Part shown: positions 9,797-17,865 of the stretch, one piece after another
Layout: each line of letters opens with the position of its first letter
Position numbering within the stretch: position 1 is the stretch's first letter
Assembly: GCF_900102375.1 (NCBI RefSeq)
Contig: NZ_FNBO01000003.1
Location: forward strand, 186,001 to 250,000
DNA from: Halorubrum xinjiangense
GTDB lineage: Archaea; Halobacteriota; Halobacteria; Halobacteriales; Haloferacaceae
DNA length: 64,000 nt
Direction of reading: 5' to 3'
The notes under the pieces: generated by a model
The model's input: the letters and a program-made list of their open reading frames with translations, nothing else
The model's database searches: none
Told to the model about the DNA's origin: nothing
Translations under genes and position numbers: made by a program

Positions 9797-9805
9797 GCTT
9801 TTATA
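9797..9805. promoter_or_regulatory. TATA-like element in the divergent intergenic region
   Basis: The sequence ttttataac reads as TATA-like on both strands. For the minus gene it predicts a start about 17 nt upstream of the ATG at 9757. For the plus gene (fttA, ATG 9979) it would imply a leader of about 150 nt. The remaining 9806-9978 stretch holds no clear gene. Confidence 0.4.
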
Positions 9806-9978
9806 ACGGCGGGGCAGTAGTCCGATCCAAGCGGGTTTTCGCTGGCTGTTCCCGCGTACGGAACCAGTACGGACAGTACTTCCACTATGCCTACCCCGTC
9901 ACGGTCGATCGATCGGCGGCGAGTCGCCGCGCGACGTGATTCGACGACGACGGCGGCCTCGACGACCCGAAGTGAGAT

Positions 9979-11904
9979 ATGAGTCAAGTCGACAAGCAAC
10001 TCGATACGTTGAAATCAGAGATCGAACAGGAGATCCCGAACGATATCACGGTCACCGACGTGAAATACGAGGGGCCGGAGCTGGTCGTGTACACGCGCGA
10101 CCCCAAGCGCTTCGCGGGCGACGGCGACCTTATCCGCCGGCTCGCCTCGAAGCTCCGCAAGCGGATCACGGTCCGACCGGACCCGAGCGCCCTCTCGCCG
10201 CCGGCGCGGGCCGAAGACCAGGTCCGGGAGGTGATCCCGGAGGAGGCCGGCGTGACCGACCTCGACTTCCACGAGGACACCGGCGAGGTCGTCATCGAGG
10301 CCGAAAAGCCCGGGATGGTGATCGGCCGCCGCGGCTCGACGCTCCGCGAGATCACCCAGGAGGTCGGCTGGACCCCCGAGGTCGTTCGGACGCCGCCGAT
10401 AGAGTCCTCCACCGTCTCGAACGTCCGCGGCTTCCTGAAGAACGAGCGCGAGGAGCGCCGCGACATCCTCGAACGCGTCGGCCGGCAGATCCACCGCGAG
10501 GAGATGTCCGACGACGAGTGGGTCCGGATCACGACGCTCGGCTGCTGCCGCGAGGTCGGCCGCGCGGCCTTCATCCTCTCGACGCCCGAGACCCGGATCC
10601 TCATCGACTGCGGCGACAAGCCCGGCGCGGAGGGAGAGGTGCCGTACCTCCAGGTGCCCGAGGCGCTCGGCGCCGGCGCGGCGACGCTCGACGCGGTCGT
10701 GTTGACCCACGCCCACCTCGACCACTCGGCGCTAGTCCCGCTGCTGTTTAAATACGGCTACGACGGTCCCATCTACACGACGGAGCCGACCCGCGACCTG
10801 ATGGGTCTGCTCACGCTCGACTACCTCGACGTCGCGGCGAAGGACGGGCGGACGCCGCCGTACGAGTCCGCGCAGGTCCGCGACGCGATCAAACACACCA
10901 TCCCGCTGGAGTACGGCGACGTGACCGACGTGGCTCCGGACGTGAAGCTCACGTTCCACAACGCGGGCCACATCCTCGGCAGCGCCGTTACCCACTTCCA
11001 CATCGGCGACGGCCTCTACAACGTCGCGTTCTCGGGCGACATCCACTACGAGGACACGCGCCTCTTCAACGGCGCGGTCAACGATTTCCCGCGCGTGGAG
11101 ACGCTCGTGTTGGAGTCCACCTACGGCGGCCGCAACGACTACCAGACCGACCAGGAGGACTCCGAAGAGGCGCTCAAGGAGGTCATCAACGAGACGTACG
11201 AGCAGGGCGGGAAAGTCGTCATCCCCGCCTTCGCCGTGGGGCGCTCCCAGGAGATCATGCTCGTCTTAGAGGAAGCGATGCGCGAGGGGGATATCCCCGA
11301 GATGCCCGTCCACCTCGACGGGATGATCTGGGAGGCGACCGCGATCCACACGACGTACCCCGAGTACCTCCGCGACGACCTCCGCGACCGCATCTTCCAC
11401 GAGGACGAGAACCCGTTCCTCGCCGACCAGTTCAACCACATCGACGCCGGCGAGGAGGAGCGACAGGAGGTCGCCGACGGCGATCAGTGTATCATCGTCT
11501 CCACGTCCGGGATGATCGAGGGCGGACCGATCATGTCGTGGCTCCGCCACATCGGTCCCGACCCGGACTCGAACCTCGTGTTCGTCGGCTACCAGGCGCA
11601 GGGTACGCTCGGCCGCCGGATCCAGAACGGCTGGGACGAGATCCCGGTCGACGGCTGGGGCGGCGGCAGCCGCGGCGACACGCTGACTCTGGAGATGGGC
11701 ACGGAGGTCGTCGACGGCTTCTCCGGTCACGCCGACCGGCAGGGGTTAGAGAACTTCGTGAAGACGATGAACCCGCGCCCGGAGAAGGTCCTCTGTGTCC
11801 ACGGCGACGAGAGCTCGGTTCAGGACCTCTCGTCGTCGCTGTATCACGACTACAACATGCGGACGTTCGCGCCGAAGAACCTGGAGACGTTCCGGTTCAA
11901 GTAA
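9979..11904 (+). CDS. fttA: aCPSF1/FttA ribonuclease, archaeal transcription termination factor
   Basis: 641-residue beta-CASP metallo-beta-lactamase ribonuclease, the archaeal homologue of CPSF73. It cleaves nascent RNA at U-rich 3' ends and terminates transcription. The N-terminus carries two KH-like domains (residues about 1-140, with GMVIGRRGSTLREI). The lactamase core starts at about 180 with GCCREVGRAA and has the zinc motif HAHLDH at residues 244-249. Later motifs are GHILGSA, LESTYGGR, the beta-CASP PAFAVGRSQE, VSTSGMIEGG and the C-terminal GFSGHADR and CVHGD. Full length matches the family. A pseudokinase gene begins 12 bp downstream on the same strand. Confidence 0.95.
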   Translation: MSQVDKQLDTLKSEIEQEIPNDITVTDVKYEGPELVVYTRDPKRFAGDGDLIRRLASKLRKRITVRPDPSALSPPARAEDQVREVIPEEAGVTDLDFHEDTGEVVIEAEKPGMVIGRRGSTLREITQEVGWTPEVVRTPPIESSTVSNVRGFLKNEREERRDILERVGRQIHREEMSDDEWVRITTLGCCREVGRAAFILSTPETRILIDCGDKPGAEGEVPYLQVPEALGAGAATLDAVVLTHAHLDHSALVPLLFKYGYDGPIYTTEPTRDLMGLLTLDYLDVAAKDGRTPPYESAQVRDAIKHTIPLEYGDVTDVAPDVKLTFHNAGHILGSAVTHFHIGDGLYNVAFSGDIHYEDTRLFNGAVNDFPRVETLVLESTYGGRNDYQTDQEDSEEALKEVINETYEQGGKVVIPAFAVGRSQEIMLVLEEAMREGDIPEMPVHLDGMIWEATAIHTTYPEYLRDDLRDRIFHEDENPFLADQFNHIDAGEEERQEVADGDQCIIVSTSGMIEGGPIMSWLRHIGPDPDSNLVFVGYQAQGTLGRRIQNGWDEIPVDGWGGGSRGDTLTLEMGTEVVDGFSGHADRQGLENFVKTMNPRPEKVLCVHGDESSVQDLSSSLYHDYNMRTFAPKNLETFRFK

Positions 11905-11916
11905 GCGCGCGACGAG

Positions 11917-13251
11917 ATGGACCGAACCGACGAGACGCCGGACCCGGACGACCTCCTCGAGACGGCGCTCACGGACCCGGAATCGCTGGATGCGGCGCGA
12001 ACCGCGAGGCTGGTGGCGCAGCTGGAACAAGACGACGCGGACGTCCGGCGGGCCGCGTCGTGGGCGATTCGCTTCGTCGCCGCGGAGCGGCCCTCGATCG
12101 TCGACACCTGCGCCGGTCGGTTCCGGCGGGCGCTCCGTGACCCCGAGGCCCGACCGGTCGTCCTCCGGACGCTCGCGGTCCTCGCTGAACACAACCGGGA
12201 GGCGGTCACCGAGATCGTCGACGGGGCGGTCGAGGCCGAAGCGATCGACGAGGTCGTCGGGCGACGCGTCGTCGGGGGGTACCGGCCCTCGGAACCAGAG
12301 TCCGGCGGGTCGGTTATCACCGACGAAGGAGAGGAAGCGACCCCGCCGACCGAGACCGCCGTCGACGTTGAGCGTCGCGAACCGAGCGACGCGGCACCCG
12401 ACGAGGGACCGCCGGAGCCGTCCGGTCATCCTCCGGCCGAGCCACCGGCCAAACCGCCGCGGCTCGACCGAACGCTTCCCGAATACGATCCGGTCCCGGC
12501 CGAGGAACGGCGCGGTGGTTCGGACGTCGACACCACCAGATTCGCCGAGGGCGGTCGAGAGTTCACGGCGGCTCGTCGAACGGCGGCGAGCGCGCGGAGC
12601 GTCGACGAGACGGCGTTCCGGGACGCGGTCGAGCGGTGGCGTCGGATCGACGGGCACGACGCCGTCGCGCGCGTCGTGGACCACGGAACGCGCCCCGCGC
12701 CGTGGCTCGTCTCCGAGCGGGGCGCTCCGGGATCGCTCGCCGATCGGGACGCGCCGGTCCCGCCGGCGGAGGCCCGATGGATCCTGTCTCGGATCGCGGC
12801 CGCGCTCGGCTACGCGCACGCGGCCGGCGTGTTACACGGGGGAGTCTGGCCGGGAGTCGTCACGCTCGTGAACGCGGTCGAAGACCCGGACGCCTGGGCG
12901 TATCCGCGGGTCGGCGGCTGGGGGCTCCGAGCGGCGGTCGGGCCGACCGCGGAGCTCTTCGAGCTACCCGACCGCTACGCCGCGCCGGAACACGTCGCGC
13001 CCGATCGGTTCGGGGGCGTCGACGCCGCGACCGACATCTACGGGCTCGGCGTGATCGGGCACGAGCTACTGACGGGTAGCGCACCGGTCCGGGAGGACGG
13101 GACCGTCCGCCCCACCCGGACGGTCGCCGAGGGCGTCCCCGAAGGGCTGTCGACGGTCCTCGCGAAGGCACTCAAACCGGCGAAGATGGCCAGGTACGCG
13201 TCCGCGGCGGCGTTCGAACGGGACCTGGCCGCGGAGGGCGACGGTGCGTGA
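11917..13251 (+). CDS. HEAT-like plus degenerate protein-kinase-fold protein
   Basis: 444-residue protein. Residues 1-90 look like HEAT/armadillo helices (ADVRRAASWAIRFVAAE, RPVVLRTLAVLAEHNREAV). Residues 95-190 form a Pro/Glu-rich linker. From about 195 to 440 a protein-kinase-like C-lobe is recognisable: RWILSRIAAALGYAHAAGVLHGG (HRD replaced by HGG at 307-309), GGWGL at 333-337 in place of DFG, an intact APE at 356-358 and DIYGLGVIGHELLTG. Loss of the catalytic and metal-binding Asp suggests a pseudokinase. It sits 12 bp after fttA and overlaps the next membrane-protein gene by 8 bp, so all three may be cotranscribed. Confidence 0.75.
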   Translation: MDRTDETPDPDDLLETALTDPESLDAARTARLVAQLEQDDADVRRAASWAIRFVAAERPSIVDTCAGRFRRALRDPEARPVVLRTLAVLAEHNREAVTEIVDGAVEAEAIDEVVGRRVVGGYRPSEPESGGSVITDEGEEATPPTETAVDVERREPSDAAPDEGPPEPSGHPPAEPPAKPPRLDRTLPEYDPVPAEERRGGSDVDTTRFAEGGREFTAARRTAASARSVDETAFRDAVERWRRIDGHDAVARVVDHGTRPAPWLVSERGAPGSLADRDAPVPPAEARWILSRIAAALGYAHAAGVLHGGVWPGVVTLVNAVEDPDAWAYPRVGGWGLRAAVGPTAELFELPDRYAAPEHVAPDRFGGVDAATDIYGLGVIGHELLTGSAPVREDGTVRPTRTVAEGVPEGLSTVLAKALKPAKMARYASAAAFERDLAAEGDGA

Positions 13252-14056
13252 GCTTGCGGCGGGATCGATTCGCCTCGCGGACCCCGGTCTCCCCGCGAGC
13301 GTCCCGGACGCTGCGGCCGTCGTCGGGCCCGCCACGGTGTCGTCAGGGACGGGCGTCACTCGGTTCGTCGCGGCGGTACTCGTGTTGACCGCGTGTCTCG
13401 GGACGGCGCGGTACGCGCTGGTGACCGCGAGACACGAGCCGCACGACACCCTCGTGTGGCGCTACGTCGCGCTGTCGACGACCGTCGGTGCCGTCTTCGC
13501 GGGGCTGCTACTGGTCGAGACGGTCACGCCGACCGTCGGAACGGTCGTCGTCGCGTTCCGGCTCCTCGCGCAGCTGTTCTTCGTTGCCTTCCTCGCGCTG
13601 TCGCTGCGGGAGCTGTACTACGCACAGCCCGCGACGTCGACGGAGAGCGACCGGATCTCGCTGTCGACCGCCCGGCGGATCGAGACCGGATTCATGCTGC
13701 TCGCATTAGTCCAGTTCCCGGTCGTCGTCTGGGTCGGGCCGACGGCGGTCGCACAGGTGATCCTCGCGCTCGCGGCCGGCGCGTTCACCGTCTACGGCGC
13801 CTCGTTCGGGCAGGCGATCCGCGCCCGGCGGTTGACCCGCGGAACCGTCCTCGACGCCACCGTCACCTACACCATCGCCGTCCTGCTCTGTGTCGGGGCG
13901 CTGAGCGTCGCGGAGGGAGCGGTCCTCGCGCCGATCCCTCAGGCCGCCGTCAGCGGCGCGGTCAACGTTCTCCTGGTGATGGTCGGAACGTTCCTGATCA
14001 GCCTCATCATCAGGCTGAAACGGAGCGCCGACGCGAGCGGCGGTGCCACCCCCTGA
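13244..14056 (+). CDS. Seven-helix membrane protein, uncharacterised
   Basis: 270-residue integral membrane protein with about seven hydrophobic segments (for example VAAVLVLTACLGTARYAL, VVAFRLLAQLFFVAFLALSL, VILALAAGAFTVYGASFG). A soluble loop between helices 3 and 4 carries YYAQPATSTESDRISLS. The number and spacing of helices recall the sensor modules found at the N-terminus of haloarchaeal signalling proteins, but no signalling domain follows. The start GTG at 13244 lies inside the pseudokinase gene (8-bp overlap), so translation is probably coupled. The function is unknown. Confidence 0.65.
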   Translation: MRELAAGSIRLADPGLPASVPDAAAVVGPATVSSGTGVTRFVAAVLVLTACLGTARYALVTARHEPHDTLVWRYVALSTTVGAVFAGLLLVETVTPTVGTVVVAFRLLAQLFFVAFLALSLRELYYAQPATSTESDRISLSTARRIETGFMLLALVQFPVVVWVGPTAVAQVILALAAGAFTVYGASFGQAIRARRLTRGTVLDATVTYTIAVLLCVGALSVAEGAVLAPIPQAAVSGAVNVLLVMVGTFLISLIIRLKRSADASGGATP

Positions 14057-14125
14057 CGCGGGCGGAGTCGTCGGTTCGGCGTCCGTAACCGGGTTCGGCG
14101 TCCGCGACTGGATTCGGCGTCCGTC

Positions 14126-15784
14126 TCAGTCGTCGACCTTCCCGTCCCGTCCTTCCCCGTCCGACTCGCGCTCCCGCGCGTCGACCTTCCCGTCCCGCCG
14201 GTCCCGCTCCCGCGCGTCCGGGTCGCGTTCGGCAGGGTCGCCGTGCCCGCCGCCGCCCGGCGTCCGGACGGAGACCGTCGTTCCGGCCGCGACGTCGACG
14301 GACGCCTTCGCCGGGACCGCCTCGCCGTCGATCAGGTTCTCCCCGAGCGCGCCCTCCGCGCCGCCGTCGAGCCCCCGCGGGGCGGTCCGCCGGCGCTCGG
14401 TTAGTAGCGAGACGGTCGCGTCGGTCTCGACGGTGACGGTCCGCTCGATGCCGAGGCCGCCGCGATGGCGGCCGTCGCCGCCGCTCGACGGGCGCAGCGC
14501 GTAGCGCTCGACGCGGAGCGGGTACGCCGTCTCCAGCGCCTCGATCGGCGTGTTGAGCGTGTTGGTCATCCCGACCTGAACGCCGTCCATCCCGTCTTTG
14601 GTCGGCCGGGCGCCGAACCCGCCGGCGATCGTCTCGTAGTAGGTGAACTCCCCCGCGCGGTCGCCGATTATCAGGTTGTTCATCGTCCCCTGCCCGCCGG
14701 CGGGAACGGCGTCGGGCACCGCCTCTGCGAGCGCTTCCAGCGTCACGTCGGTGACGCGCTGGCTCGTCTCGACGTTCCCGCCGACGACCGCGGCCGGCGG
14801 TCGGGGGTCGAGCAGCGATCCCTCGGGTGCCGAGACGGAAACCGGCTCGTAGCAGCCGTGGTTCGGCGGGATATCCGGGTCGGTGACCGCGCGGACGACG
14901 AAGTACACCGCGCTCTTCGCGACGGAGAACGGGGCGTTCAGGTTGCCGTCCACCTGGTCGGCGGTGCCGGCGAAGTCGACGTCGATCGCGGCGCCGTCGA
15001 CGGTGACCGCCACCTCGACCGGGATGTCCGCGTCCGTCACGCCGTCGCCCTCGAGGACGTCCCGCGCGCGGTAGGTGCCGTCCGGCAGCTCCCGGATCTC
15101 CGCTTCGACGCGCTCTCGGGAGTAGTCGATGACGGCGTCGAACGCGTCGAGTAGCGTCGACCCGTGCTCGTCGAGCAGTTCGCCGACCCGCTCCTCCGCT
15201 CGCGCGTTCGCGGCGCGCTGCGCGCGGAGGTCCGCCTCGCGCTCGTCCGGCGTGCGGACGTTGGCGAGGATGAGATCGCGGACGGCGTCGTTCGGCTCGC
15301 CGCCGTCGACGAGGCGGACCGCCGGGAGCCGGAGCCCCTCCTCGTATATTTCCCGCGCGCCGGGCGGCATGCTCCCCGGCGCGCTCCCGCCGACGTCGGC
15401 GTGGTGCGCGCGCGACACCGCGTACCCGACGACATCGCCGTCGGGCGCGACCGGCGAGACCAGCGTGACGTCGGGGAGGTGGGTTCCGCCGGCGAACGGG
15501 TCGTTGACGACGAACACGTCGCCTGGCTTCGGGTTCTTTTCGAGGACGACCTCGACCGCGTCGGGCATCGCGCCGAGGTGGACCGGGATGTGTTCGGCCT
15601 GCGCGACCAGCCGGCCGTCGGCGTCGAACAGCGCGGTCGAGCAGTCCTGCCGCTCCTTGATGTTCGGCGAGTACGCGCCGCGGATCAGCACGTGGCCCAT
15701 CTCGGCCGCGACGCTCTCCAGCTGGTTCCGGAGGATCTCCAGCGAGACCGGGTCGATGTCCGCGTCGGCGCCGGCGTCGCTCAC
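14126..15784 (-). CDS. hyuB: Hydantoinase B / oxoprolinase family subunit
   Basis: 552-residue HyuB-type subunit that acts with HyuA in ATP-dependent opening of cyclic amides such as 5-oxoproline or N-methylhydantoin. The N-terminus DPVSLEILRNQLESVAAEMG, the motif NDPFAGGTHLPDVTLVSPV and the C-terminal GGGGHGDP are diagnostic. The GTG start at 15784 overlaps the HyuA stop by 4 nt (GTGA), giving coupled translation. An in-frame start 18 codons upstream yields only Arg-rich sequence and is rejected. The last 35 residues are a charged repeat of Arg/Asp/Glu with two DGKVD elements. Confidence 0.92.
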   Translation of the reverse strand: MSDAGADADIDPVSLEILRNQLESVAAEMGHVLIRGAYSPNIKERQDCSTALFDADGRLVAQAEHIPVHLGAMPDAVEVVLEKNPKPGDVFVVNDPFAGGTHLPDVTLVSPVAPDGDVVGYAVSRAHHADVGGSAPGSMPPGAREIYEEGLRLPAVRLVDGGEPNDAVRDLILANVRTPDEREADLRAQRAANARAEERVGELLDEHGSTLLDAFDAVIDYSRERVEAEIRELPDGTYRARDVLEGDGVTDADIPVEVAVTVDGAAIDVDFAGTADQVDGNLNAPFSVAKSAVYFVVRAVTDPDIPPNHGCYEPVSVSAPEGSLLDPRPPAAVVGGNVETSQRVTDVTLEALAEAVPDAVPAGGQGTMNNLIIGDRAGEFTYYETIAGGFGARPTKDGMDGVQVGMTNTLNTPIEALETAYPLRVERYALRPSSGGDGRHRGGLGIERTVTVETDATVSLLTERRRTAPRGLDGGAEGALGENLIDGEAVPAKASVDVAAGTTVSVRTPGGGGHGDPAERDPDARERDRRDGKVDARERESDGEGRDGKVDD

Positions 15785-17865
15785 GCGTCGCTCACCTCCG
15801 CGACCAGCGCGCCGTCGTCGCGCAGTCGGACGCGCCACGCGGGCGGGACGACGACCGTGCTTTCCGCGCCTTCGATCACGACTGGCCCCTCGACCCCCTC
15901 ACCCGTCGGGAACCGATCGCGGTCGTAGACGGGCGTCTCGCGGGCCCCGTCGGGGAAGACCGCCTCGCGGGTGGTCCGCGGCTCGGCGCCCTCGCCCCCG
16001 ACGGCCCCGACCGCGGGCGCGCTCCGGGGGACCGTCGCCGTCGCGCGGCAGTTCACCAGGTCGACCGGCTCGTCGGCGCGGTAGCCGTACGCCGACTCGT
16101 GGGCCGCCGCGAACCGCTCCCCGACGGCCGCGGGGTCGAAGGGGCGCTCGACGTCGACGGTGAGCTCGAAGCTCTGCCCGGCGTACCGGCAGTCAGCGGC
16201 GTACTCGACGCGCGCCGCGTCCGGGTCGCTGACCTCGTCCAGCAGGTCGTCCGTCAGGTCCCCGTAGAGCGCGTCGACCGCCTCTGGGTCGACCGTGTCG
16301 AGCGGCCCCTGGCGCGTCCGTACCGCGTCGCGCGTCTCGTCTGCCGCGAGCAGGCCGTACGCTGACAGGACGCCCGACGCGTGGGGAACGACGACGCGCT
16401 CGACGTCGAGGCCGTCCGCGATCGAGACCGCGTGCATCGGGCCGGCGCCGCCGAACGCGACGAGGCCGAACTCGCGGGGGTCGTGACCGCGCTCGACGGT
16501 GACAGAGCGGATCGCGCGGGCCATGTCGGCGTTCGCGACGCGGTGGACGCCGAGCGCGGCCGCGACCGGGCCGTCCATCCCCGCCTCGTCGGCGAGGTCG
16601 GCGAGCGCGTCGCGGGCGGCCGCCGCGTCGAGCGACAGGTCGCCGCCGAGGTCCGTGTCCGCGCCGACGTACCCCAACACGAGGTTCGCGTCCGTGACGG
16701 TCGGCTCCGTCCCGCCCTTCCCGTAGCAGGCGGGGCCGGGGTCGGCGCCGGCCGAGCGCGGGCCGATCCGGAGCGCGCCCCCGGCGTCGACCCACGCGAT
16801 CGACCCGCCGCCGGCGCCCACGGTCTCGACGTCGACCATCGGCGTGCCGATGGGTCGGTCGGCGACCGCCGACTCCGTCGTCCGCGCCACCTCGCCGTCG
16901 CGGACGAGGCTCACGTCGCTGGAGGTGCCGCCCATGTCGAAGGTGATCAGCCCGTCGCGGTCGGCGTCGGCTCCCGCCGTCGCGCTCGCTCCCACGACGC
17001 CCGCCGCAGGGCCCGAGAGGACGGTCGTCACGGCGTTCCGCCTGACGGTGTCGGCGTCGGTGACGCCGCCGTTGGCCTGCATGATCCGCGGCTGCGGGAG
17101 GCCCAGGTCCCGCGCCCGCTCGGTGAGGCGACCGACGTAGCCGTCGATCGCCGGGCGCACGTACGCGTCGACGACTGTCGTCGAGGTGCGCTCGTACTCG
17201 CGGAACTCGGGGAGCACCTCGTGGGAGGCGGACACCGGGACGTCGAGTTCCGCGCGCAGCGCGTCCGCGACGCGCGCTTCGTTCTCGGGGTGCGCGTAGG
17301 CGTGCAGCAGGCAGACCGCGACGGACTCGACGCCCGCGTCGCGGAGATTGGCGACGAGCGACTCGATCTCGGGGTCGTCGACCGGGCGCTCGACCCCGTC
17401 CGGAGCCGCGCGCTCGGCGACCTCGAACCGGCGGCGCCTGGAGACCAGCGGCGCGGGCTTCTCGGCGTCGAGGTCGTACAGCGACGGCCGGGTCTGCCGG
17501 CCGATCTCCAGCACGTCGCGGAACCCCTCGGTTGTCACGAGCGCGGTCCGCGCGCCGTCGTTCTCTAAGAGCGCGTTGACGGAGACGGTCATCGCGTGGG
17601 AGAACTCGGTCACGCTCTCGGGGTCGATCCCGGCCGCCTCGCAGGCCCTCTCGATGCCCGCCGCGACGCCCTCGCTCTGGTCGTCGGTGCTCGGCACCTT
17701 TGCGGTGACGAGGTCGCCGTCTACGGAGAGCGCCACGTCGGTGAACGTCCCCCCGACGTCGACGCCGATCGCCGGGCCGGCCGTCGGTCGGTCGTGGGCG
17801 CCCTGTCGATCTTCGACGCCCTGTCGATCGGCCGCCGGTCGACCGTCCGCGGATCCCCCGCCCAT
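15781..17865 (-). CDS. hyuA: Hydantoinase A / oxoprolinase family subunit
   Basis: 694-residue HyuA subunit with the actin-like ATPase fold. The phosphate-1 motif IGVDVGGTFTDVAL follows a short charged N-terminus. Further family motifs are QANGGVTD, TFDMGGTSSDVSLV and FGGAGPMHA. It forms an operon with hyuB, whose start overlaps this stop. The ATG at 17865 is preceded directly by an in-frame TAG, so the protein cannot begin further upstream; a 22-codon leader ORF ends at that TAG. The substrate could be 5-oxoproline, hydantoins or acetone-like compounds. Confidence 0.92.
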   Translation of the reverse strand: MGGGSADGRPAADRQGVEDRQGAHDRPTAGPAIGVDVGGTFTDVALSVDGDLVTAKVPSTDDQSEGVAAGIERACEAAGIDPESVTEFSHAMTVSVNALLENDGARTALVTTEGFRDVLEIGRQTRPSLYDLDAEKPAPLVSRRRRFEVAERAAPDGVERPVDDPEIESLVANLRDAGVESVAVCLLHAYAHPENEARVADALRAELDVPVSASHEVLPEFREYERTSTTVVDAYVRPAIDGYVGRLTERARDLGLPQPRIMQANGGVTDADTVRRNAVTTVLSGPAAGVVGASATAGADADRDGLITFDMGGTSSDVSLVRDGEVARTTESAVADRPIGTPMVDVETVGAGGGSIAWVDAGGALRIGPRSAGADPGPACYGKGGTEPTVTDANLVLGYVGADTDLGGDLSLDAAAARDALADLADEAGMDGPVAAALGVHRVANADMARAIRSVTVERGHDPREFGLVAFGGAGPMHAVSIADGLDVERVVVPHASGVLSAYGLLAADETRDAVRTRQGPLDTVDPEAVDALYGDLTDDLLDEVSDPDAARVEYAADCRYAGQSFELTVDVERPFDPAAVGERFAAAHESAYGYRADEPVDLVNCRATATVPRSAPAVGAVGGEGAEPRTTREAVFPDGARETPVYDRDRFPTGEGVEGPVVIEGAESTVVVPPAWRVRLRDDGALVAEVSDA

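Follow-up and report, generated by a model that had tools for sequence, protein, structure and literature searches.

A conserved haloarchaeal gene pair for a HEAT-pseudokinase protein and a seven-helix membrane protein, placed behind fttA in Halorubrum xinjiangense apparently by chance

A stretch of 64,000 nucleotides (nt) of Halorubrum xinjiangense (contig NZ_FNBO01000003.1, positions 186,001 to 250,000), hereafter called the window, carries two genes directly behind fttA, which encodes the termination factor aCPSF1. It is established that fttA is essential. The first of the two genes, designated pk, encodes a protein with a HEAT-like arm and a kinase-like domain, and the second, tm, encodes a membrane protein. 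A preliminary description had presented these genes as a signalling pair tied to the termination factor, and its account of the layout was exact: pk begins 12 base pairs (bp) after fttA, pk and tm overlap by 8 bp, and tm encodes seven predicted helices. The features of the locus, with the mean predicted local distance difference test (pLDDT) score for the model, are as follows.

9799 to 9806, plus strand: TATA-like element TTTTATAA, about 180 nt 5' of the fttA start, recognized by pattern match alone
9979 to 11904, plus strand: fttA (aCPSF1; TIGR03675, E 6.4e-292), a context gene outside the conserved module
11905 to 11916, plus strand: 12 bp gap between fttA and pk without a T-run, the left junction of the putatively inserted pair
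11917 to 13251, plus strand: pk, HEAT plus pseudokinase protein, 444 amino acids (PF00069, E 3.8e-8; AlphaFold2 mean pLDDT 81)
11944 to 12273, plus strand: HEAT-like helical arm of pk in the model, residues 10-119 (HEAT_EZ in 19 of 29 family members)
12460 to 13248, plus strand: kinase-fold domain of pk, residues 182-444 (VIA Z 25.3 to Staphylococcus aureus Stk1)
12835 to 12843, plus strand: HGG of pk at the HRD site, residues 307-309 (HG[GA] in 29 of 29 members)
12916 to 12924, plus strand: GWG of pk at the D-W-G site, residues 334-336 (Asp retained in 23 of 29 members, lost in the window copy)
13244 to 14056, plus strand: tm, seven-helix membrane protein, 270 amino acids, GTG start, overlapping pk by 8 bp
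14073 to 14129, plus strand: three tandem 19-nt copies (GGTTCGGCGTCCG...) at the right junction
14126 to 15838, minus strand: hydantoinase B homologue (PF02538, E 4.6e-206), convergent right neighbour, context

The genes pk and tm form a real, conserved two-gene module. Samples of 146 genomes of the order and 294 genomes of the phylum, both drawn from larger groups, were surveyed (G and L numbers are our handles for genomes and loci). In the order sample 142 genomes contained fttA and 37 contained tm; a pk-like kinase, a class that includes unrelated kinases, was present in 49. Distances were taken from 43 of 92 pk rows (most of the others were secondary kinases or belonged to genomes lacking tm), from all 37 tm rows and from 39 fttA rows of the 37 carriers, with a second FttA-like match of G137 excluded. 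In 34 of the 37 tm carriers pk lies within 1.5 kb upstream of tm on the same strand, or in 35 if the pk of G137, recognized by profile match only, is included; the unpaired carriers are G017, where the two genes are about 92 kb apart, and G031, which has a tm fragment. Twenty-nine named loci were also inspected, from Halorubrum, Natronocalculus, Halohasta, Natronomonas, Halorussus, Haladaptatus, Halomicrococcus, Halobacterium and two uncultured relatives without genus placement. In 26 of these, pk precedes tm on the same strand at a distance of no more than 0.7 kb; L090 (interrupted), L104 (opposite strand) and L115 (none) depart from this, and overlaps of 4 or 8 bp are found in many loci. Distances between copies of pk and of tm correlated with r 0.95 (26 loci); for seven congeneric copies the correlation was 0.92, versus 0.64-0.66 with the fttA block. 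Both genes are under purifying selection: in three comparisons of copies per gene, the ratio of nonsynonymous to synonymous substitution (dN/dS) was 0.19-0.41 in pk and 0.13-0.40 in tm. A recent pseudogene was ruled out by dN/dS below 0.5 together with the family-wide APE Pro and Glu, DxYxLG Asp and R426. The pair is present in Halobacterium salinarum DSM 3754 (L109), a species with laboratory genetics, and no description of it was found among the titles and opening lines of abstracts listed in searches of an open-access library.

Across the loci no constant third gene was seen with the pair. Third genes are lineage-specific: an RGP gene in Halobacterium-type loci, an extracellular solute-binding protein gene in some Halorussus, and a MarR-like gene in Halorussus, Haladaptatus and Halomicrococcus. 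The open reading frame (ORF) maps of the neighbours came from a rough length-and-composition rule applied to GC-rich DNA, by which genes are missed or misplaced. The solute-binding genes (PF01547) follow tm at L057:10496-11779 and L054:6966-8276, and no ABC permease was recognized near them among neighbouring ORFs that were only partly searched. In ten Halorussus-type loci a gene for a small CPxCG protein of about 79 amino acids separates pk from tm and runs on the opposite strand (L054:9299-9538 and the pk-tm gaps of L013, L019, L020, L021, L022, L026, L028, L055 and L057); the L054 protein had no Pfam match.

The kinase-like domain of pk is recognizable by sequence and by predicted fold. The window protein matched Pkinase (PF00069) weakly, with 33.5 bits against a curated cut-off of 31.7, and PknB-type kinases of the PDB at 1.4e-9, and all 29 members of the pk alignment matched Pkinase at E<=0.1 (left out of the alignment were the broken G153 copy, L005, L018, L029 and members in L116-L124). 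The AlphaFold2 model consists of a helical N-terminal arm and a bilobal kinase fold, with residues 123-167 under pLDDT 50, and it superposed on S. aureus Stk1 over 241 residues with a root-mean-square deviation (rmsd) of 2.7. As for the HEAT label given earlier, it holds for the family, in which HEAT_EZ matched 19 of 29 members at E<=0.1 (best 3.3e-11), and residues 10-119 are all-helical in the model of the window protein, whereas its own match to PF13513 (E 0.016) falls below the cut-off.

Catalytic residues of active Hanks-type kinases are missing from the family. The HGG of the window copy aligned on HRD in alignments with PDB chains, and across the 29 aligned members the HRD Arg is replaced by Gly in all, the HRD Asp by Gly (19) or Ala (10), and the catalytic-loop Asn, lost in all, by Val, Ala, Ser or Thr. 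The beta-3 Lys column, placed by alignment only, holds Lys in 2 and Arg in 23 of the 29, the window copy having Arg. Ten further members were compared by pattern: nine showed HGG, HGA, HAG, HRS or HRT, the motif of L120 being cut off, and HRD occurred in none of the nine with a full motif. Since none of the 29 keeps the HRD Arg, the HRD Asp or the catalytic-loop Asn, pk is, by its aligned residues, a pseudokinase across the whole family and not a product of recent decay; an intact catalytic loop was seen in none of the members compared. The APE Pro, APE Glu and DxYxLG Asp are invariant. Of the motifs listed in the preliminary description, APE and DIYGLGVIGHELL are indeed present and HGG does replace HRD, but GWG was read as more degenerate than it is. 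It aligned on DFG for chain 9eed_A, and the haloarchaeal kinase L029 has SDWG at the aligned place, although the PknB alignment puts DFG elsewhere; because L029, which keeps HLDLKPEN, has the W and all 29 family members share it, the W is no sign of degeneracy, and the change of Asp to Gly is the sole loss at this site.

The partner protein was examined in an alignment of 27 of 30 tm sequences, L016, L017 and L020 being excluded for unclear starts. Its model (mean pLDDT 85) has helices at residues 34-64, 66-94, 100-127, 140-164, 168-195, 202-228 and 233-266. At E<=1 the window tm had no match in Pfam or NCBIfam, and the 27 sequences gave no convincing Pfam match (best E 0.016, scattered families). 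Lysine plus arginine numbered 324 in 79 presumed inner positions versus 81 in 66 outer ones, and aspartate plus glutamate 255 versus 102; the predicted topology is N-out/C-in. Conservation was higher toward the inner end (Spearman -0.30, p 1e-5, for positions that are not independent and are unweighted for relatedness), and among 128 ways of flipping the helices none gave a stronger conservation gradient than the alternating topology. Of 22 invariant residues, 18 lie on the inner side, in a helix half or a loop, and the other four are F41, A104, L111 and F181; R122, E123, Y125, R144, E147, G200, T201 and D204 (window numbering) are among the invariant ones.

Sequence searches of tm against PDB chains returned no match at E<=10, and thus neither a rhodopsin nor any other solved seven-transmembrane (7TM) protein was matched in this way. 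The retinal Lys of microbial rhodopsins has no counterpart, as Lys was found at helix-7 residues 233-255 in 0 of 27 sequences; position 259, at the cytoplasmic end, holds Lys in 9 and Gln in 18. Microbial rhodopsins were not among the 50 Foldseek or VIA rows listed, which excludes nothing, and most of the structural-match rows listed for tm were filled by G-protein-coupled receptors (GPCRs) and designed GPCR-like proteins. The GPCR matches reached VIA Z 17.0 (rmsd 4.7, 221 residues), and the best Z for unrelated helical models was about 14. Because Foldseek gave no match at E<=0.001 (best 6e-3) and Z 17 stands against this baseline, only the arrangement is claimed for tm, the likeness to GPCRs consisting in seven helices with N-out/C-in topology.

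The proposed tie between the pair and the termination factor was not supported by gene order. Among the 37 carriers of the order sample, fttA adjoins tm in one, the window genome itself; it lies on another contig in 19 and at least 250 kb away in 17. Within the genus, fttA was found in 52 of 52 genomes and the pk-tm pair in 8, and in the seven carriers other than the window genome fttA is on a different contig in six and about 250 kb distant in one (G052). No fttA occurs within up to 6 kb on each side of the 29 named loci, some of which end at contig ends, and no pk or tm match was found in 21 fttA loci of other genomes, the seven congeneric carriers included. The order fttA-pseudokinase-membrane protein is thus not conserved even in near relatives, which either lack the pair or have it elsewhere; the preliminary description had itself named a lack of conservation of this order as refuting its reading.

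The slot behind fttA is a variable site, since it is occupied differently from relative to relative. Relatives with FttA identity of 97-99% have the locus without the pair. In the empty-site ones (L040, L042, L082, L084), fttA is followed by the convergent hydantoinase genes, with 40-94 nt to the aligned end, so that the hydantoinase B homologue at the right of the window pair is there the direct fttA neighbour. An amino-acid permease fills the slot in L077 (PF13520, 6e-45), as do permeases 95% and 89% identical to it in L081 and L080, respectively. L085 has a MarR-type regulator there together with an unknown ORF, and L039, L041, L078 and L079 have 0.5-0.8 kb without a clear gene. On the right side of the window pair a 48-nt-spaced duplication lies at the junction, within the tail of the hydantoinase gene; the GGTTCGGCGTCCG tandem copies were not seen in the 200 nt 3' of fttA of the four empty-site relatives, and no mobile-element ends or target-site duplication were recognized at the junctions of the window pair. 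Judged from these comparisons, the adjacency to fttA looks like an accident of where the pair landed. Discarding the link, which would have been surprising, avoids a false lead and leaves a haloarchaeal gene pair that is widespread and uncharacterised, comprising a pseudokinase family and its dedicated 7TM partner. As a separate observation, the stretch behind fttA in L039, L041, L078 and L079 contains repeated TTATAAAT-type elements with a spacing of about 60 nt in GC-rich DNA.

Transcription of the pair in the window genome may nevertheless depend on fttA. Five congeneric copies (G171, G161, G150, G185, G153) carry GATTTAT 64-69 nt 5' of pk, the copies of G161 and G150 sharing their downstream flank. 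The heptamer was noticed post hoc in hexamer-scan output and counted afterwards: both strands of these five loci together (186,008 positions) hold eight occurrences, with about 0.005 expected per 110 nt, and five of the eight are those before pk. It is missing upstream of pk in G188, G052, the more distant G144 and the window copy, where the DNA upstream of pk is the 3' end of fttA. The list of TATA-like hexamers contained none within 250 nt upstream of pk in the window, G171, G161, G150, G185, G188 or G144; it scored G153 and G052 only, leaving four of the five GATTTAT copies unscored. A sigma-70 and terminator scan, whose coverage does not extend to archaeal promoters, gave nothing useful. 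Because the gap to fttA is 12 bp and holds no T-run, and because the upstream element of the pair is missing, the window pair is likely transcribed from the fttA promoter (promoter capture), and TTTTATAA is the likely promoter of the three-gene run. Cotranscription, as assumed in the preliminary description, is therefore plausible in this genome, but as a local condition and not as a conserved tie to fttA. The locus would then be a likely example of a transferred gene pair that lost its own promoter and joined a housekeeping transcript.

By its distribution the module belongs to the core of some genera and to the accessory genes of others: tm is near-universal in two (9 of 9 sampled genomes of genus g31, 13 of 14 of genus g24), and the pair is patchy in Halorubrum. 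In the phylum sample tm matched in 16 genomes, every one within the same order. Flanks of 5 kb were compared among eight congeneric copies, with matches above 250 nt reported. The sole long shared flank was the downstream one of G150 and G161 (92% over 5 kb), whose upstream flanks are not shared. A methionine sulfoxide reductase stretch of 650-680 nt lies downstream in G161 and G150 and upstream in G185, and short matches joined G171 with G185 (341 nt, 69%) and G153 with G185 (262 nt, 68%). The pair tree groups G188 with G052 (100), and the fttA-block tree groups G188 with G171 (100). The gene tm was also found on nine plasmid records of 303-558 kb. The pair can evidently be lost, since a transposase gene (L075:7018-7839; PF01609, 4e-13) sits between the pieces of the split pk of G153. 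A viral origin received no support: when viral contigs were scanned once, using the tm alignment, 0 of 379 pattern matches were confirmed.

We favour, with a probability of roughly 0.55, the reading that pk and tm form a transferable haloarchaeal module which landed behind fttA by chance, and in which the 7TM protein docks a HEAT-pseudokinase acting as a non-catalytic switch or scaffold. The module would have moved between genomes and, in the window strain, been inserted behind fttA. The N-out/C-in protein would anchor the soluble pseudokinase through its conserved cytoplasmic face, a proposal suggested by the conserved pairing, the overlapping frames, the correlated divergence (r 0.95) and the conservation of the inner face. 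It might then pass on a signal from the membrane or from outside; a change in the 7TM protein would alter the shape of the pseudokinase without phosphotransfer, and the HEAT arm would hold or release a further protein. The docking, the switch, the cue and the downstream partner are all inferred, and the second half of the mechanism, shape switch and HEAT recruitment, is proposed by analogy with MviN, EssB/YukC and pseudokinases that serve as scaffolds or switches.

Several points weigh against this reading. The cytoplasmic conservation of tm could stem from packing or another partner, and pk may bind nucleotide, given that the DFG Asp is retained in 23 of 29 members. That tm can exist without pk follows from G017, from L104, where the genes are 3.7 kb apart on opposite strands, and from a distant tm subfamily without an adjoining pk in 5 of 5 located loci (L138:5275-6078, L139:5247-6014, L140:5170-6045, L141:5393-6184, L142:4930-5730). 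As to mobility, all nine plasmid records are predicted to be non-mobilizable, and the near-universal presence of tm in genera g31 and g24 suggests that it was inherited vertically in these. An ancestral module that was later lost in some lineages and relocated in others may also account for the distribution, because G161 and G150 are sisters in both the pair and the fttA-block trees and several pair-tree nodes are weak (40-60).

Features of pk and tm have eukaryotic and bacterial parallels. SCYL and ULK4 likewise join a pseudokinase and HEAT/ARM repeats in one chain, a likeness of architecture; unlike in these, the HEAT part of pk is N-terminal, and SCYL and ULK4 are not known to have a dedicated membrane partner gene. 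The haloarchaeal Hanks-type kinase L029 is 32% identical to the window pk over the kinase domain and shares the W for F in DFG, but it retains HLD, the Asn and a beta-3 AVK and is not adjacent to tm. In MviN of Mycobacterium tuberculosis and in EssB/YukC, as presented in PMC12599244, a dead kinase fold with a membrane link works by recruitment instead of phosphotransfer, as is proposed for pk-tm; the main text of that paper has the word HEAT zero times and archaea once. These proteins carry pseudokinase and membrane segments in one chain, whereas pk and tm are two overlapping genes with seven helices and a HEAT arm. Passages of PMC8141879 describe scaffold and switch roles of pseudokinases, with ULK4 as a putative scaffold that binds ATP. 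A far-reaching extension of our reading, namely that the pair represents a haloarchaeal receptor class unlike two-component and chemotaxis systems, in which a GPCR-shaped 7TM protein signals through a HEAT-pseudokinase without phosphotransfer and whose cassette is able to capture a housekeeping promoter, seems to us improbable.

Among other explanations, the pair may be an envelope regulator in which the pseudokinase gates the membrane protein for surface or glycan assembly, as in the case of the mycobacterial pseudokinase MviN. A glycosyltransferase-like RGP gene follows tm in all seven Halobacterium-type loci searched (L052, L053, L058, L109, L112-L114; L052 protein, PF03214, 5.9e-14), but the same search found none in Halorubrum, Halorussus, Haladaptatus or Halohasta loci, and with tm itself lacking a convincing Pfam match we regard this role as unlikely. 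Slightly less credit is given to an anti-virus module, in which tm would be a membrane effector held by a pseudokinase sensor. The kinase domain resembles the PADLOC models MkoA (3.7e-17) and PD-T4-6 (6.7e-17) and, far below its cut-off, NCBIfam MAD6 (2.2e-13), and the pair is patchy in Halorubrum, with different sites, plasmid copies and one copy cut by a transposase. These matches are, however, limited to the kinase domain, tm having none; tm is near-universal in two genera, and no relative of it was confirmed in viral contigs. That pk is an active kinase with unusual chemistry is very unlikely: the intact fold and the DFG Asp retained in most members would allow it, but the HRD Asp and catalytic-loop Asn are lost throughout the alignment and HRD is absent from the nine further members with a fully readable motif. 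A conserved functional operon, in which the pair would respond to a signal and regulate FttA, or be regulated by it, draws on the shared strand, the 12 bp gap and the likely common transcript of the window genome, and it is refuted as a conserved arrangement by the synteny, with fttA next to the pair in 1 of 8 genus carriers, 1 of 37 order-sample carriers and 0 of 29 named loci and the slot in relatives empty or filled by a permease or a MarR-type regulator, so that we give it almost no weight.

Some minor observations were made on these gene families. The neighbour of the distant-subfamily tm is a trypsin/PDZ protein gene in L138; in L141 it is multicopper-oxidase-like. Two genomes that belong to one genus each have ten kinase-like matches in a stretch of about 80 kb (G059:C2:33787-113898, G103:C1:31159-106035). 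Several haloarchaea have a divergent, nearly full-length second FttA-like gene with 69-72% identity to the window FttA (G020, G083, G091, G125, G131, G142, G097, G087, G088, G094 and, in the genus, G185); G142 has three matches, and in G059, G103, G115 and G138 both copies among the matches listed are of the divergent type.

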